From assembly GCF_002243045.1 (NCBI RefSeq), contig NZ_MBKP01000013.1, forward strand, positions 1 through 51,315: a stretch of DNA of 51,315 nt, written 5' to 3'. The translations under genes and the position numbers were made by a program. Source of the stretch: Methanolobus psychrotolerans. GTDB lineage: Archaea > Halobacteriota > Methanosarcinia > Methanosarcinales > Methanosarcinaceae. This document shows, in pieces, positions 23,034 through 31,495 of this stretch; the stretch's first letter is position 1, and the number at the start of each line of letters is the position of its first letter. Below the pieces are notes generated by a model, which worked only from the letters and a program-made list of their open reading frames with translations, was not told the DNA's origin and made no database searches.

Positions 23034-24764
23034 TTATCCCTTTTTTAGAATGCATATCCCGTGAGGATCAAGCGGGACCTTTACTACTTTCCTGGAACCA
23101 AAATGCTCTACAAATACCTCATTTTCGGGATTGAGAAGATCGACCATTCTCTGGCCACTGATGTTGAGATTTCCGTCTATGGCAACATAATCATCCCGGG
23201 GTTCAGAATCAAGGTTAAGGGTTACAAGTATCTCACTGGTATCCAGTATCCTTGAATATGCAAGGGTGCTTTTCCCGGTGCATGGGAACGAAAAATCTAT
23301 TCCGTCACCGGATATTTCCCTGAAATACTGTCTGCCGTAACGTAGTACAGGCTCTGTTCTTCTTATTTTGGCTACTTCTGCGATTCCTGAATAGACAGGA
23401 TGCCACGGATCAAAGAAATGATGGCATGTTGTGCCAAAAGCACCCCAGCTCCCTCCAAACATACACTCCCTTATGTATGCATCATCCTCGCCGCCTCCAT
23501 TGAAGCCCTGCTCGGTCCCATAATATATGCATGGAATACCCTGGCTGGTGAGCAGGTAGGCTATGGCAAGGACTGCCTGCTGCGGGAAAGCATTGCCATG
23601 CATGAAGCGTCTGTAGGGTCTTATCATCTGGTCATGGTTGTCTACAAAAGTCACAAAATATCTGCCTGCTTCTCCATGGTCTGTATAAAGGTTCCTGAAT
23701 GCCTCATACCTTTCCCGAAGAGCAACCGGATTGCTGAATCCTTTGATTACATCCTCAAGCACGAAATAAAGAGGAAAATCCAGTGCGGCATCCAGGGATG
23801 GAAAACGTTCGTTTGTTCCTGGAATACGGCTGTTGCGCCCGATATAGTTCTGTATTGTGGTGTCATCGCCTACAATTTCCCCGAAGATGAAGAAATCATG
23901 CTTGCCAATTGACTTGGCGTATTCTTTTAAGGCATTACAGAATATGGCTGTAGAACTGGATTCAAGGTGTTTTACGGTGTCTACTCTAAACCCGTCAACA
24001 TCTGTCATCTTTATCCAGTACTTGTAGATCTTTATAAGAGTATCAAGAACCTCTGGTTTTCTGATATCAAGCTCTTTCAGTGAAAAGAAGTCACCGTTCA
24101 CCGCCTGTTCATGGTCATTCCAATCCCATATCTGCCCTCTTCTCTTGTAGCATTCCGGTTGCTGCAATTCTTTTGGCCAGACCCCATCACTATCGTTCAG
24201 AACCTTGTCAGGTTTCTTTGTCGGTCTGAATGTCCTCCATTTTCCAAACTTAAAGGGATCTGTGGCATCTTTCCAGTAGTAATAAGGGTAATCCCCAGGA
24301 TAATCCCAGTTGTCACCTGTATGATTGATCACGATATCAAGGATAACATATATCTCATGACTATGGGCCTCCTTCACAAGCTCCTGAAGATCTTCCATGG
24401 TTCCAAACCTTTCGTCAACCCTCAGGAAATCCTGTATGCCATAACCATGATAACTGTCATCCATCTCCTGCCGGTTCCTGAAGACAGGACTTAGCCAGAT
24501 GGCATTGGCACCCAGGCCTTTGATGTACTCAAGCCTTCTGTTCACTCCTTTTATTTTTCCTCCCTGGAACTTTTTCCCCTGGGAAATGTCAGGTTTCTGC
24601 GACTGTGCTGATGGATCATAGAGTTCAGGATCTTCTGCATTGTTGTCAAAACGGTCCACCAGCAAAAAATAGATGAACACATCCCTCCAGTCCGGAGGGG
24701 AAGGAAAAACATCATTCGTTGGTGTAAAATCTATATCTGTAATTGATCTGATATTATCTCCCAT
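23034..24764 (-). CDS. GH13 alpha-amylase-family glycosidase, cytoplasmic
   Basis: A 576-residue alpha-glucan enzyme. The four GH13 regions are visible: DIVINHTG (143-150), DGFRVDTVKH with the nucleophile Asp262, FGEIVG with the acid/base Glu296, and FVDNHDQ with Asp378. There is no signal peptide, so it acts inside the cell, presumably on stored glycogen or malto-oligosaccharides. The C-terminal beta domain (EILVTLNLDSEP, HFGSRKVVKVPLDPHGICIL) is present. It stands alone, with no other sugar genes nearby. Confidence 0.88.
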   Translation of the reverse strand: MGDNIRSITDIDFTPTNDVFPSPPDWRDVFIYFLLVDRFDNNAEDPELYDPSAQSQKPDISQGKKFQGGKIKGVNRRLEYIKGLGANAIWLSPVFRNRQEMDDSYHGYGIQDFLRVDERFGTMEDLQELVKEAHSHEIYVILDIVINHTGDNWDYPGDYPYYYWKDATDPFKFGKWRTFRPTKKPDKVLNDSDGVWPKELQQPECYKRRGQIWDWNDHEQAVNGDFFSLKELDIRKPEVLDTLIKIYKYWIKMTDVDGFRVDTVKHLESSSTAIFCNALKEYAKSIGKHDFFIFGEIVGDDTTIQNYIGRNSRIPGTNERFPSLDAALDFPLYFVLEDVIKGFSNPVALRERYEAFRNLYTDHGEAGRYFVTFVDNHDQMIRPYRRFMHGNAFPQQAVLAIAYLLTSQGIPCIYYGTEQGFNGGGEDDAYIRECMFGGSWGAFGTTCHHFFDPWHPVYSGIAEVAKIRRTEPVLRYGRQYFREISGDGIDFSFPCTGKSTLAYSRILDTSEILVTLNLDSEPRDDYVAIDGNLNISGQRMVDLLNPENEVFVEHFGSRKVVKVPLDPHGICILKKG

Positions 24765-25358: not shown

Positions 25359-26051
25359 ATGATACAGGATTTTAAAGAAACGTTCAAGGAGGTAGTCCAG
25401 GCAGTATTGCCGTTAACGCTAACGGTGCTTCTGTTAATGCTGGTCATTGGCCTGAATTCCGATATGATCCTGTCGTTCTTCACAGGGGCTTTTATGGTGA
25501 TCGCAGGTATGGTACTTTTCCTTATGGGTGTCAAGCTGGGAATGCTGCCCATCGGTGAGTCCATTGGTTCGGAACTGCCAAAACACAATTCATTGCTGTT
25601 CATTGTAGCAGTTGCTTTTGCCCTGTCTTTCATGGCAACCCTCGCAGAGCCTGATGTAAGGGTGCTAAGCACCATGATCGATTCTGTCTCAGATAATAAC
25701 ATATCCCGCAATACACTGATATTTTCCATAGCCATGGGTGTAGGGTTCTTTGTATCTGTTTCCATGCTCAGGATTGTCTATGGTATTCCAATAAAGTACC
25801 TGTTGACGGTGAGTTACCTGGTCGTTATAGTACTATCATTTTTCACAAACCCCGAATACCTTGCAATAGCCTATGATGCAGGTGGTGTGACCACGGGGCC
25901 CATGACAGTGCCTGTGATCCTTGCACTTGGTATAGGTACTGTGTCGGTGCTGGGGGAGAAATCTGAGCTGTCCGAAGGCTTTGGACTCATTGGTCTGGCG
26001 TCCATAGGTCCGATAATAAGTGTGATGCTGATAGGGGTGTTTTCACCTTGA
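25359..26051 (+). CDS. DUF1538 integral membrane protein (first paralog)
   Basis: A 230-residue protein with about six to seven membrane segments. The family signatures are ATLAEPDVRVL (about residue 91) and AYDAGGVTTGPMTVP (about 172-186), which look like conserved polar elements inside the membrane. The family is unannotated. It heads a three-gene operon with a second DUF1538 gene (overlap of four bases) and a PII-like gene. The pairing with PII implies a transporter or channel tuned by cell energy or nitrogen state; the substrate is unknown. Confidence 0.75.
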   Translation: MIQDFKETFKEVVQAVLPLTLTVLLLMLVIGLNSDMILSFFTGAFMVIAGMVLFLMGVKLGMLPIGESIGSELPKHNSLLFIVAVAFALSFMATLAEPDVRVLSTMIDSVSDNNISRNTLIFSIAMGVGFFVSVSMLRIVYGIPIKYLLTVSYLVVIVLSFFTNPEYLAIAYDAGGVTTGPMTVPVILALGIGTVSVLGEKSELSEGFGLIGLASIGPIISVMLIGVFSP

Positions 26052-26782
26052 GTGGTGTTGAGCATGGTCAGGGTCTTTTTTCCATCGTTTTTGAGGTATT
26101 AGAGGCTTTACTGCCTCTTGTATTGTTTTTCATTGTGTTCCAGCTATTGTATCTCAGGTTCCCTTCTTCGCAACTTATAAAACTCTTCCTTGGGATATCG
26201 ATGACAGCCGCTGGAATGATATTATTCCTTTATGGGGTGTACAATGGTTTCTTTCCTGTGGGACTGGAAATCGGACGTTTTTTCGGGAAAATGGAACATA
26301 AATGGCTAATGATACCGGTAGGATTCCTTCTTGGTTTCCTGGCCACATTTGCAGAGCCTGCAGTAAGGGTATTGTGTTACCAGATTGAAAAATCATCAAG
26401 CGGTTACATAAGGTCAAAACTGATGCTTTACACTTTGTCTTTCAGTGTTGCCGTATTTGTTGCCATCGCAATGGCCAAGCTCGTCTATGGCATCCCCTTC
26501 ATGTACATAATAGTTCCCGGATATCTGTTTGCCCTTGTACTGATGTGGCTGTGCGACAAGGACTTCATAGCAATTGCCTTCGATGCAGGAGGGGTGGCTA
26601 CAGGTCCGATGGCTGTCACTTTCCTCATGTCAATGGCCGTGGGCGTGGCTTCATCCCTTGAGAACAGAAATCCTGTAATCGACGGTTTTGGCATGATAGC
26701 AATGATAGCTCTGGCACCAATAATCTTTGTAATGATTTTAGGCGTATATATGCGTTATATAGGAGGTAAGGATAATGTATGA
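26048..26782 (+). CDS. DUF1538 integral membrane protein (second paralog)
   Basis: A 244-residue paralog of the preceding protein with the same two signatures, ATFAEPAVRVL and AFDAGGVATGPMAVTF, at matching spacing. The start is TTG 26048, which overlaps the TGA of the first gene (TTGA), so translation is coupled. The two proteins probably form the halves of one complex. Its final codons overlap the PII-like gene by eight bases. Confidence 0.75.
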   Translation: MSGVEHGQGLFSIVFEVLEALLPLVLFFIVFQLLYLRFPSSQLIKLFLGISMTAAGMILFLYGVYNGFFPVGLEIGRFFGKMEHKWLMIPVGFLLGFLATFAEPAVRVLCYQIEKSSSGYIRSKLMLYTLSFSVAVFVAIAMAKLVYGIPFMYIIVPGYLFALVLMWLCDKDFIAIAFDAGGVATGPMAVTFLMSMAVGVASSLENRNPVIDGFGMIAMIALAPIIFVMILGVYMRYIGGKDNV

Positions 26783-27170
26783 TGTAACTGATCTGGTCCT
26801 GATAGTGACCATAGTAAAAAAAGGCTGGGGTGACAAGGTTGTAAATGCATCCCGAAAAGCAGGTTCCAGGGGAGGAACTATTATTTACGGGCGCGGTACT
26901 GGGGTGCACGAGAATAAGAGCCTTCTTGGAATGTTGATAGAGCCGGAAAAGGAGATCGTGCTCACGTTATCGGATTCTCCAAATGCCGATAGCATCATAG
27001 AGTCCATCCGTGAAGATGTAGGTCTTGATAAACCAGGGTGCGGACTGGGATTTGTAGTTCCGCTTGAGAAAGTGTTCGGAACTGCTCATATACTATGCGA
27101 ACTGCACCAGAATTGTGATCTGCACTCACTGGAAGGTAATGATCCAAACGGGGACAGTAATAAAAAATAG
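26775..27170 (+). CDS. PII-family (GlnB-like) signalling protein
   Basis: A 131-residue PII-fold protein: beta strand LVLIVTIVKKGWGDKVVNAS, glycine-rich start of the T-loop GGTIIYGRGTG, and VLTLSDSPNADSIIESI; the B-loop is DKPGCGLGFVV, which differs from the classical nucleotide loop. There is no tyrosine at the uridylylation position. GGAGGTAAGG gives a strong start at 26775. Being in an operon with two DUF1538 genes, it probably gates or senses for them rather than controlling glutamine synthetase. Confidence 0.8.
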   Translation: MYDVTDLVLIVTIVKKGWGDKVVNASRKAGSRGGTIIYGRGTGVHENKSLLGMLIEPEKEIVLTLSDSPNADSIIESIREDVGLDKPGCGLGFVVPLEKVFGTAHILCELHQNCDLHSLEGNDPNGDSNKK

Positions 27171-27228: not shown

Positions 27229-28644
27229 TTATTTCCGGCCGAAATAGAATATGCCAAGCCCTCCCCAGAATAGCATGATAATTGCTGCAAGGATGAGTAT
27301 AGGTACCGGACCGAAGTAGAATATGAGGGGGACAGATGCTGCTGTAAATATACCGCCTCCTACAATTGGTTCAAAAAGCAGTTGCTTATAGCCAAATCCC
27401 TCAAGGGCCGGAGATCTGTTTCCAGGGTCAGCGATTCTCATAAGAAGGAGTCCGCTTGCTGTCATTCCCATGGACTGTCCGAAATTACCTATGCTCTTTT
27501 CGAACCAGTAAGAAGGCATCATCCTTGGTCCCAGGAACATGAACGCCACAAGGTTCCAGACAATACCCACCGTTGCAAGGATCAGGAAAGGCATCAGGTT
27601 ATTCCCAATGACTGTCAGCGAGAGCGTCGCTATCGCGCTGGTTATCAGTATATCGAGCGATAAGCCTTGTATCCTCATCATGAGGTCCCTGTCAAGGGTC
27701 TGATGCGCGTCGAACCTGTCCAGGAACATCTGAAGAATGATGCCACCTATCATTGCTAAAGGAAAGAGCGGGATATGGGCCAGTAGATATATGCCTGTAG
27801 TCTGGGCCCATACGATCTCTTCTATCAGTATAAGTGCCTGAAGGATCAGATATCCTATTCCTATAGCAACTCCAACGTAGGCGAAATGGAGTGAAAGAGG
27901 TTCAATGGATTCAGGTCTTGTAGTGATCTTCCCGGCAGACTCCCGGGCATCAAAATCAATGATACCGCTCTGATATCTTTCATTGAGGGATATGTGGTCC
28001 TTATTTGTCAACACTTCTGTTTTACCTGTTCTTACACCGTAATTAAGGAGCACGATCCCCAAGACGACACCAAAAAGTATTCCCACCGTCGCAAGACCAA
28101 GTGCTAAGTCTGCTGCATCTGGAAAACCCAGCTCTTCAAAGGTAGCAGCCATGCCAGCTGCAGTACCATGTCCGCCTTCAAAAGATATCTCTATAAGGGC
28201 ACCTGCCATGGGATCAATTCCAAAAAAAGGAGTCAGAATGAGAATTGTCACAAGTATCCCGAACACATACTGCCCCCATGCTATGGTCTGTCCGTGGGCT
28301 ATCTGCGGCCCTGCCAGAAGCCATATTTCACGGAGACCTGGAATTTTCTTTCCAAGAAACAATGTGGCAAATATTATACTTATGAACAGTCCCGGGAGAG
28401 TCTTCCATACGTCAAGCATCTCTTCGGGAAATATTCCTCCTGAAAGGAATGTATCCTGGTAACCTGTCCACGAAGCCACATGTCCCAGAATCTCCGGGCC
28501 AAGGAACAAGGCCAGGAACCCTCCAATAAGCGAGCTTGGGATAAAGAGCTTCTGAAGTGAAGGGGACATGACTCGCATCCATTTTCCAAGGAGCAGGATA
28601 GTGCCAAGTACAAGAAAACTCATTCCGACCATAGAGACAGACAT
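27229..28644 (-). CDS. Sodium/glutamate symporter (GltS)-type transporter
   Basis: A 471-residue membrane protein with about ten to twelve helices in two halves. GltS-like marks include the N-terminal GKWMRV segment, FIPSSLIGGFLALFLGP, EGGHGTAAGMA and, in the second half, GQSMGMTASGLLLMRIADPG. GltS proteins import glutamate with sodium. It is longer than enterobacterial GltS (about 400) because of a hydrophilic middle loop (residues about 205-250). It converges with the PII operon, and a nitrogen link between them is suggestive only. Confidence 0.75.
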   Translation of the reverse strand: MSVSMVGMSFLVLGTILLLGKWMRVMSPSLQKLFIPSSLIGGFLALFLGPEILGHVASWTGYQDTFLSGGIFPEEMLDVWKTLPGLFISIIFATLFLGKKIPGLREIWLLAGPQIAHGQTIAWGQYVFGILVTILILTPFFGIDPMAGALIEISFEGGHGTAAGMAATFEELGFPDAADLALGLATVGILFGVVLGIVLLNYGVRTGKTEVLTNKDHISLNERYQSGIIDFDARESAGKITTRPESIEPLSLHFAYVGVAIGIGYLILQALILIEEIVWAQTTGIYLLAHIPLFPLAMIGGIILQMFLDRFDAHQTLDRDLMMRIQGLSLDILITSAIATLSLTVIGNNLMPFLILATVGIVWNLVAFMFLGPRMMPSYWFEKSIGNFGQSMGMTASGLLLMRIADPGNRSPALEGFGYKQLLFEPIVGGGIFTAASVPLIFYFGPVPILILAAIIMLFWGGLGIFYFGRK

Positions 28645-28849: not shown

Positions 28850-31495
28850 ATGGCAGAGGAACAGTGGTGTGGCATCCCTTCAGAGGATGTGTTTACTTTA
28901 CTTAACAGTCATCCTGATGGTCTGAGTCAGGAAGAAGCAGAGATAAGACTTGTGCGTGATGGGTATAATGAGGTGGCTTCCAAACAGGAGCATGGATCAA
29001 TATATCGTTTTCTGAAACAGTTTGCAAGTCCTCTGATATACCTGCTGCTTGCAGCTGCTGTTATCACTTTTTTCCTGGGGCTACATGTCGATACCATAGT
29101 CATTTTGTTCGTTGTGCTGGCAAATGCTATAATAGGCTTCATACAGGAAGGAAAAGCACAAAATGCTCTTGAATCCCTTTCAAAACTCCTTGTGCCTGAA
29201 GCAAGGGTTCTTAGGGGTGGAGTAAGCACCATGCTCCCAAGCAGGGAGCTTGTTGTCGGTGATGTTGTACTGCTGGAAGCGGGGGACAGGGTCCCTGCAG
29301 ATATGCGCTTCTTTTATGCTAAGAACTTGAGGGCCGACGAATCTATACTGACGGGAGAGTCTGTACCTGTTGAAAAAAATATTGCCCCCATTAGCACGGG
29401 ATGTGCTTCTTTTGGTGAGCAGAAGAACGTATCCTTTGCTGGGACACTGATAAACCAGGGGCAGGGCCGTGGCATCGTGGTGGCTACAGGTAATGCGACT
29501 CAGATTGGCAAGATATCCGAATTCATCAGGGAAAGTAAGGAGATATCCACTCCTCTTCTGCGTAAAATAGCACGTATGAGCGTTGTACTTTCGGTTGTTA
29601 TCGTAATCATATCTGCCCTGACCTTCGCTATAGGTGTGGTGAGGGGATATGACGCCGTAGAGATATTCATGGCTTCAGTAAGCCTTGCTGTTGCAGCAAT
29701 CCCGGAAGGGTTACCTGCAGTCATAACCATATCCATGGCCATCGGAGTTAACCGGATGGCTGCAAAGAATACTATTATTCGTACAGTACCTGCAGTGGAG
29801 ACGCTTGGCAGTGCCACTGTCATCTGCACTGACAAGACCGGCACCCTCACAAGAAATCAGATGACTGTGACCCAGGCATATGCGGCAGGGAACTTGTATG
29901 AACTCACAGGTACAGGCTATATTCCCGAGGGTGATTTCCTGCTGGATGGAATAAAGGTTGACCCGCTGGAGGATAATGTCCTTACAGAAACCCTCCGGGC
30001 AGGTGTTTTGTGCAATGATGCTTCTTTCAAAGGAGTGGACAATATTGACGGAGACCCTACGGAAGGTGCCTTGCTCATCTCAGGCATGAAAGCCGGGAAA
30101 TTCTATCTGCCCAGGAAGGATATAGTGCCCTTTGAGCCAGAAGAAAGGTTCATGGCAACCCTTCATGAGAATGAGGATGGTTCAAAGGTCATTTATGTAA
30201 AAGGCTCTCCGGAAAAGATAATGAGCATGTGTGTTTCCCAGTTCGACGGACAGAGTACAGGTCCGGTGGATGTGGAAGGTATTACACGTGCCGCTGAGCA
30301 GATGGCCTCAGGTGCTTTGCGAGTGTTAGGTATGGCTTACAGGAATGTACCTGTGGATGTGGAAAGAATAGAAGCTCCGGATATAAAGGACCTTGTATTT
30401 GTTGGTTTGCAAGGTATGATGGATCCGCCTAGGGAAGGGGTGATGGAGGCCATTGGAAAATGCAAGACGGCAGGAATCCGGGTCATAATGATCACAGGGG
30501 ACCACCTGAAAACAGCTTATGCCATAGCCACGAAGATAGGCATTGAAACAGAAGGTGCACTTTCAGGGAAGGATATTGAAGAAATGTCAGATGGGCACCT
30601 TAAAGAGCGCCTGGAATTGACCTCGGTGTTCGCAAGGACATCTCCGGAGGACAAGCTGAGGGTTGTAAAACTCCTCCAGGAGATGGGAGAAGTGGTTGCA
30701 GTTACCGGGGACGGTATCAATGATGCACCTGCCCTGAAAACGGCCGATATAGGTATATCCATGGGTATTACAGGTACTGAGGTTGCAAAGGAGGCTTCCG
30801 ATATGGTGCTGGCGGATGATAACTTCTCTTCCATCGTAGCGGCCATTGAGGAAGGCAGGGATGTCTACAGCAAGATACAGAAGATTCTGCTCTGGACACT
30901 GCCTACTAACGGAGGACAGGCTCTATCTATAGTGCTTGCGGTACTTTTAGGCATCACACTGCCTCTGGTGACCCTGCAGATATTGTGGCTTAACACTGTC
31001 ACAGCCATTGGATTGGGAGTTCCTATTACTATGGAGCCAAAGGAAAGGGGTATTTTGAAAAGATCACCCAGACCCCCGAAGGAGCCAATACTCATTCCGC
31101 TCATTAAGAGAAGGGTTATATTCGTCTCACTGCTTATCGTTGCAGGCGCATACATCAACTTCTTCATGAAACTCGAAAACGGAGGTAGTCTGGATGCTGC
31201 ACGCACTATCGCACTGAACACCATAGTATTCTTCCAGATATTCTATCTCTTCAACTCTAAGTCCATGTATGAATATGTGTTCAGGGACCTGCTGTCAAAC
31301 AGGATAATGCTATTGGGTATAGCTATTGTGATCTTGCTCCAGATGATCATCACCTATGTACCCGCCATAAACTCCATCTTTTCCACTGCTCCCATACATG
31401 CAGCGGACTGGCTGATGATAGTACTCGTTTCCAGTTCAGTGTTCTTCCTGATAGAGTTTGAGAAATACATGTATAAGAAGGGGTGGTTGTCTTAA
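28850..31495 (+). CDS. P2-type cation-transporting P-type ATPase
   Basis: An 881-residue ATPase. The cation N-terminal domain, TGES (A-domain), PEGLPA in TM4, CTDKTGTLT with the phosphorylated Asp, KGSPEK in the N-domain, and GDGINDAPALK hinge are all present, with ten membrane helices. TM4 is of P2A type, but TM6 reads WLNTVTAIGLG: the aspartate that SERCA uses for calcium (NxxxD) is alanine, and TM5 has NGGQ. Calcium specificity is therefore doubtful; sodium, proton or another cation is possible. It is divergent from the GltS-type gene. Confidence 0.85.
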   Translation: MAEEQWCGIPSEDVFTLLNSHPDGLSQEEAEIRLVRDGYNEVASKQEHGSIYRFLKQFASPLIYLLLAAAVITFFLGLHVDTIVILFVVLANAIIGFIQEGKAQNALESLSKLLVPEARVLRGGVSTMLPSRELVVGDVVLLEAGDRVPADMRFFYAKNLRADESILTGESVPVEKNIAPISTGCASFGEQKNVSFAGTLINQGQGRGIVVATGNATQIGKISEFIRESKEISTPLLRKIARMSVVLSVVIVIISALTFAIGVVRGYDAVEIFMASVSLAVAAIPEGLPAVITISMAIGVNRMAAKNTIIRTVPAVETLGSATVICTDKTGTLTRNQMTVTQAYAAGNLYELTGTGYIPEGDFLLDGIKVDPLEDNVLTETLRAGVLCNDASFKGVDNIDGDPTEGALLISGMKAGKFYLPRKDIVPFEPEERFMATLHENEDGSKVIYVKGSPEKIMSMCVSQFDGQSTGPVDVEGITRAAEQMASGALRVLGMAYRNVPVDVERIEAPDIKDLVFVGLQGMMDPPREGVMEAIGKCKTAGIRVIMITGDHLKTAYAIATKIGIETEGALSGKDIEEMSDGHLKERLELTSVFARTSPEDKLRVVKLLQEMGEVVAVTGDGINDAPALKTADIGISMGITGTEVAKEASDMVLADDNFSSIVAAIEEGRDVYSKIQKILLWTLPTNGGQALSIVLAVLLGITLPLVTLQILWLNTVTAIGLGVPITMEPKERGILKRSPRPPKEPILIPLIKRRVIFVSLLIVAGAYINFFMKLENGGSLDAARTIALNTIVFFQIFYLFNSKSMYEYVFRDLLSNRIMLLGIAIVILLQMIITYVPAINSIFSTAPIHAADWLMIVLVSSSVFFLIEFEKYMYKKGWLS

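Follow-up and report, generated by a model that had tools for sequence, protein, structure and literature searches.

A DUF1538 gene pair with a dedicated PII-superfamily gene in Methanolobus psychrotolerans: a candidate regulated cation/proton exchanger

PII proteins are small switches, which usually signal to transporters that they should stop. Within the 51,315 nucleotide stretch of Methanolobus psychrotolerans DNA analysed here (contig NZ_MBKP01000013.1; referred to as the window), part of a 3.16-Mb archaeal genome, a gene for a PII-like protein follows two genes for DUF1538 membrane proteins, raising the question of whether the three encode a single regulated transporter and, if so, what is transported. 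The genes, here named A, B and PII, overlap one another on the plus strand at 25359-27170 (A/B by 4 bases; B/PII by 8 bases; Table 1). An initial annotation had described two DUF1538 paralogs and a PII gene with these overlaps, and both the coordinates and the Pfam matches bear this out, with A and B exceeding the curated PF07556 cut-off of 22.6 bits and thus belonging to DUF1538. The two proteins share 36.5 % amino acid identity over 230 positions and carry the only DUF1538 domains encoded in the genome, while five PII genes are present. Two tandem PII genes of this genome resemble NifI1/NifI2 (G000:C47:15955-16632; L004, L006).

The convergent GltS-type symporter gene described in the same annotation is real, as judged from its PF03616 match, but a link to the system is not supported: it is retained in only 2/46 related loci, both from close Methanolobus relatives, and was rejected as a part of the system. 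A PMR1/Ca2+-type P-type ATPase is encoded beside the locus (28850-31495, plus strand), and is also kept in L008 and L011. An alpha-amylase-like protein of a methanogen was recognised by eye at 23034-24764 on the minus strand.

Table 1. Features of the DUF1538-PII locus in the window, and CPA-type genes near related loci
Feature	Position	Strand	Basis
DUF1538 subunit A	25359..26051	+	ATG, 230 aa; PF07556 E 1.8e-72, 243.5 bits
AEPDVRVL signature of A, at helix 3 break	25644..25667	+	Sequence; AEP helix break in L157 model
AYDAGGVTTGPM signature of A, at helix 6 break	25869..25904	+	Sequence; helix break at motif in L157 model
DUF1538 subunit B	26048..26782	+	TTG, 244 aa; PF07556 E 3.3e-72, 242.6 bits
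AEPAVRVL signature of B	26351..26374	+	Sequence; L157 model
AFDAGGVATGPM signature of B	26576..26611	+	Sequence; L157 model
Probable dedicated PII-superfamily protein	26775..27170	+	ATG, 131 aa; PF00543 25.7 bits; AlphaFold2 model; adjacency 208/214
Shortened T-loop region GRGTGVHENKSLLGMLIEPEKE, without uridylylation tyrosine	26889..26954	+	E. coli GlnK alignment; low-confidence loop in model
Altered B-loop LDKPGCGL, GlnK Lys90 replaced by Leu	27024..27047	+	Alignment
GltS-like gene, convergent	27229-28644	-	PF03616 E 2.9e-13
CPA-type genes	L010:6938-8965, L014:2794-4818, L021:7621-9321		PF00999 confirmed
CPA-type genes	L018:587-2644, L022:7623-9323, L035:1693-3357		By similarity

Linkage of the PII gene to DUF1538 across genomes

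Searches were made with DUF1538 alone, in 46 loci of named genomes and three PF07556 genome sets, and PII was therefore not selected for. PF07556-positive genomes make up 126/398 of the sampled Pseudomonadota, 84/249 of the genomes sharing a phylum with a clostridial genome and 46/295 of the Halobacteriota. After removal of duplicates, 214 distinct DUF1538 clusters had at least 400 bp of downstream sequence, and in 208 of these a PII gene directly follows on the same strand, usually overlapping the upstream DUF1538 gene (median 4 bases). The linkage spans the Halobacteriota, Clostridia and other Bacillota, Aminicenantes, Actinomycetota, Spirochaetia and Pseudomonadota, and the same gene order occurs in plasmid records with RefSeq-type annotation (Methylocystis, Chelativorans, Vescimonas, Peptoclostridium and Paraclostridium). 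Since a genome of such size carries approximately five PII genes, adjacency by chance would be expected far below 1 %. A profile of the PII subfamily detected members in 44 of the 295 Halobacteriota genomes, all of them DUF1538-positive, and no case of the subfamily without DUF1538 was found among these 295 genomes. Two DUF1538-positive Halobacteriota genomes had no PII match, namely G906, in which the locus is truncated by a contig end, and G674, whose weak DUF1538 match lies below the cut-off and in which no DUF1538 open reading frame was found. Both proportions (208/214; 44/44) show transporter and PII genes linked in the conserved manner that characterises AmtB-GlnK-type systems. The genomic pattern strongly supports the view that PII is dedicated to DUF1538, and the adjacency test suggested together with this claim in the initial annotation was passed. 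Adjacency by itself is evidence of shared use, not of binding, and the correlation between the PII and DUF1538 distance matrices (r 0.89 and 0.91; 90 loci; 0/999 permutations as high) indicates shared inheritance, not contact. No mention of PII with DUF1538 was found in the literature searched, from which subscription journals were mostly missing.

Several clusters appear exceptional. In L053 the DUF1538 copy is frameshifted, with PII following the last fragment. For locus L184 of genome G813, a PII-less reading was rejected, as PII is located about 2.7 kb downstream of DUF1538 B, behind a TnpB/GNAT-type insert. TnpB-like and GNAT-type toxin-antitoxin-like genes can be seen between the two (L272:2181-4302). 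Likewise, a PII-less reading of L188, L211, L222 and L223 was rejected at the genome level, with a PII of the same subfamily encoded elsewhere in all four genomes (G624, G130, G125 and G093). The unlinked PII of G093 and G125 (L270, L271) lies between malic-enzyme-like and CBS-domain genes, assigned by eye. A CBS gene is also found 3' of PII in L021/L022.

Co-transcription is therefore not essential, and these few Pseudomonadota lend some weight to the alternative that PII is co-inherited with DUF1538 but acts on another target, to which it would relay the state of the transporter or the ion status rather than gating transport. Ammonium transporters with GlnK can also act as such a relay. Such a role appears improbable, however, considering the near-universal adjacency in every architecture and, in the 295 Halobacteriota genomes, the absence of this PII whenever DUF1538 is absent.

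Architecture, fold and orientation of the DUF1538 proteins

DUF1538 occurs as single genes, as split A,B pairs and as fused AB proteins, with PII kept in each. Apart from single DUF1538 genes with PII, the architectures include split A,B with one PII (96 clusters, among them the window), two PIIs (5 clusters) or a PII-PII fusion (12 clusters), and fused AB with a PII-PII fusion (37 clusters), two PIIs (29 clusters) or one PII (12 clusters). Where two PIIs are encoded, a typical copy is accompanied by a divergent one; the strong divergence of the second PIIs of L032-L050 and of the N-terminal PII domain of the L157 group suggests that these may constitute a pair of unlike regulators. Two near-identical DUF1538-PII operons occur in L163 (G915, same genus), one with an extra A copy upstream. 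When 79 domains were placed in a tree, separate branches were formed by the main A and B groups, by the UmpAB-type pair of Pseudomonadota and by the fusions of gammaproteobacteria. Duplication and fusion of DUF1538 have therefore taken place more than once, with the exact number unsure as the branches are long.

Both signatures which the initial annotation ascribed to the two paralogs are present in A and in B (Table 1), and their AEP and D-x-GG cores are common to the whole DUF1538 family. A model of L157, a fused clostridial homologue, was obtained from 47 sequences (pLDDT 87.7; pTM 0.87), the alignments for structure models having been rebuilt leaving out three plasmid-record rows each. It comprises two units of seven helices each, and the AEP and D-x-GG motifs coincide exactly with helix breaks. 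Comparison of the DUF1538 model with the PDB, including SbtA, CPA/NhaA and other folds, gave no clear match (best Foldseek E 0.03; best VIA-align Z 5.8 over 85 residues), and a sequence search gave no relative with a convincing E-value (best 0.58).

The orientation of the subunits was assessed by the positive-inside rule, as the number of Lys and Arg residues on the N-terminal side minus that on the other side, a single model (L157) having served to delimit the loops. This bias is positive in 132/132 first members (window A, +3) and negative in 131/132 second members (window B, -3), the lone outlier being a duplicated A gene counted as B through a mis-assigned open reading frame. When long termini are trimmed, the mean bias is +3.95 for first and -5.08 for second members. 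The halves of fused proteins are oppositely biased (47/47 and 47/47), while the eleven single-copy members are near-neutral (mean 0.18; range -3 to 2). Oppositely biased pairs, near-neutral singletons and fusions are the pattern of dual-topology families (PMC3962082, PMC4067407), and all three are found here. The charge bias makes an antiparallel A/B pair well supported; from this bias and the loops of the L157 model, A would have seven helices with the N-terminus inside and the C-terminus outside, and B its N-terminus outside and C-terminus inside. Given the opposite bias, the near-neutral singles and the 7+7-helix fusions, DUF1538 looks like an antiparallel dual-topology family of singles, pairs and fusions in which PII is kept throughout. 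Antiparallel pairing, singles and fusions go beyond the initial annotation.

Transport and the role of PII

Transport has been reported for UmpAB of Halomonas zhaodongensis, a DUF1538 heterodimer described in 2017 as a Na+(Li+,K+)/H+ antiporter, and active in E. coli although no PII had been co-cloned (PMC5484666). DUF1538 is widespread, yet this sole experimental paper makes no mention of the accompanying PII gene (PMC5484666). The initial annotation had regarded the family as having no known substrate, a statement which the published antiport contradicts, though in a distant relative (PMC5484666). Against the UmpA/UmpB models (NF041627, NF041628; cut-offs 490/500 bits) A scores 127.6/94.3 bits and B 120/84.9 bits, and the two pairs fall on supported separate branches instead of showing one-to-one orthology of A with UmpA and B with UmpB, the Halomonas type being represented by relatives (416 bits vs 490 in the best genome searched for Halomonas umpAB). 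The motifs differ as well (AEPxVRVL and TGPM in the window vs AEPALIAVA and TSTV in the UmpAB type). Considering the unmatched cut-offs, the separate duplication and the motif differences, the activity of UmpAB may be transferred to the window pair with only moderate confidence, and since the pair is a distant relative its substrate, probably a monovalent cation, is only inferred. As a raw count, without a background rate, genes for CPA-type cation/proton antiporters lie at most 5 kb from DUF1538-PII in 6/46 loci (Table 1).

The same low scores, separate duplications and motif differences would also fit a PII-gated transporter of cargo other than Na+, K+ and H+, such as an anion, organic or inorganic, or a nitrogen compound, with the antiport of UmpAB a side activity or limited to its branch; several unrelated families have, moreover, been reported as Na+/H+ antiporters by the same screen. 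This we consider unlikely, though a serious contender, as the AEP and D-x-GG motifs are common across the family, DUF1538 counts among the most informative genes with respect to growth pH, and cation/proton antiporter genes are found near some loci.

The PF00543 match of the window PII barely clears its cut-off (25.7 vs 25 bits), while the AlphaFold2 model has the PII fold (pLDDT 85.8), and together these place the protein in the PII superfamily. The best PDB structure match of the model is Methanocaldococcus GlnK1 (2j9d, E 4.7e-7); by profile, the nearest PDB sequences are the P-II protein of 9p1x (E 9.8e-11), which from our own reading of the entry we take to be NifI of methanogens, and then archaeal GlnKs. 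Residues were compared with the PIIs of the host genome and with E. coli GlnK, whose sequence served for the numbering. Of the canonical GlnB/GlnK residues, Thr83, Lys90 and Tyr51 are each replaced by Leu, Arg101 by Gly and Arg103 by Ala, with the B-loop reading LDKPGCGL vs TGKIGDGK in GlnK. The altered B-loop and missing uridylylation tyrosine noted in the initial annotation are thus confirmed by alignment. Among the 71 members of the PII subfamily, Thr83 is replaced by Leu, Phe or Ile, Lys90 by Ile, Val or Leu (Lys being absent from the commonest residues listed for this position) and Tyr51 by Phe or Leu; Arg101 is Gly in 62/71, Arg103 is variable and the T-loop has become shorter. Near Lys58 a basic residue, Lys or Arg, is retained at a position whose correspondence an insertion makes uncertain. 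With the canonical ligand residues and Tyr51 lost, classical ATP/2-oxoglutarate sensing and uridylylation by this PII appear unlikely.

Such losses, together with translationally coupled genes and PII-PII fusions beside fused DUF1538 proteins, might also be expected if PII were a structural part of AB or a factor in its assembly, exerting no ligand-controlled switch. That role is hardly probable: complementation of E. coli by Halomonas UmpAB needed no co-cloned PII, which makes a regulator the better reading of PII than an essential subunit, and the cleft glycines of PII (G41 and G90 in the window) are nearly invariant, which suggests a retained ligand site.

We consider it probable that A, B and PII form one regulated transporter, an antiparallel dimer for monovalent cation/proton exchange with a PII switch. 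A and B, each a 7-helix member of the DUF1538/UmpAB family, would pair in inverted orientation and most likely carry Na+ or K+ in exchange for protons, and the third gene would yield a dedicated PII-superfamily trimer. The latter would most likely use its short T-loop to dock on the cytosolic side of the AB dimer, made up of the N-terminus and loops 2-3, 4-5 and 6-7 of A and of loops 1-2, 3-4 and 5-6 and the C-terminus of B. A small cytosolic ligand in the altered PII cleft would then switch transport, in place of uridylylation or an ATP/2-oxoglutarate read-out. Beyond linkage, co-occurrence, correlated distances and charge bias, this reading is favoured by the antiport reported for the Halomonas heterodimer and by the CPA-type genes near 6/46 loci, and GlnK-AmtB and SbtB-SbtA may serve as precedents. 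The analysis establishes the genes themselves, their linkage throughout the family, the shared phyletic distribution, the opposed charge bias of A and B and the loss of canonical ligand residues; the orientation itself, the docking and switching by PII, its ligand and the substrate of this pair are what we infer. Against this, Halomonas UmpAB is active without a co-cloned PII, making PII dispensable there, with the caveat that GlnB and GlnK of the E. coli host were present; the substrate derives from the E. coli KNabc screen of one laboratory, using a pair from a different duplication; and known PII-bound secondary transporters are trimeric, while DUF1538 is expected to be dimeric. Of the initial reading of a PII-linked transporter, the dedicated PII stands, the lack of a known substrate does not, and a GltS link is not supported. 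Should PII gate the exchanger, a cytosolic metabolite would bear directly on ion and pH homeostasis, and transporters under PII control would come to include one that is not a trimer.

Comparison with known systems

The window pair resembles UmpAB in its Pfam family, in the overlapping adjacent gene pair, in the predicted heterodimer with seven predicted helices each, and in the AEP and D-x-GG motifs, seen in Pseudomonadota relatives. It differs in lying far from the curated cut-offs, in its separate duplication and motif variants, and in its PII, which is absent from the UmpAB paper. As in GlnK-AmtB and SbtB-SbtA, a transporter gene is linked to a dedicated PII-superfamily gene. However, the AmtB and SbtA trimers bind a trimeric PII, while an antiparallel dimer is predicted for DUF1538, and unlike GlnK the window PII lacks the ATP-site residues and Tyr51. 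Those secondary transporters for which control by PII is known to date are trimers (PMC10710835), and the combination of a 3-fold regulator with a 2-fold transporter would therefore be new. NifI1/NifI2 of methanogens are the nearest PII sequences by profile and comprise two unlike PII subunits, as do the two-PII DUF1538 systems, but their target is nitrogenase and Lys90 is kept in the copies of the host genome. A PII (COG0347) is likewise encoded at the 3' end of the operons of YbcC/NuoL-type membrane ion complexes (PMC5700660), whose membrane proteins are unrelated to DUF1538.

DUF606 and UPF0016 (also SMR and Fluc) share with DUF1538 the near-neutral singletons, opposite pairs and fused two-domain proteins. 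Unlike DUF606 and UPF0016, DUF1538 has seven helices per unit and a near-constant PII; the comparison concerns the pattern of occurrence and charge bias. We tentatively suggest that DUF1538 may be the third known family, with DUF606 and UPF0016, of singles, opposite pairs and fusions, and the first whose antiparallel dimeric cation/proton exchanger is controlled by a trimeric PII with a non-classical ligand site, in both archaea and bacteria. The family provides a 7-helix test case for the evolution of inverted-repeat transporters, from singles to pairs to fusions.
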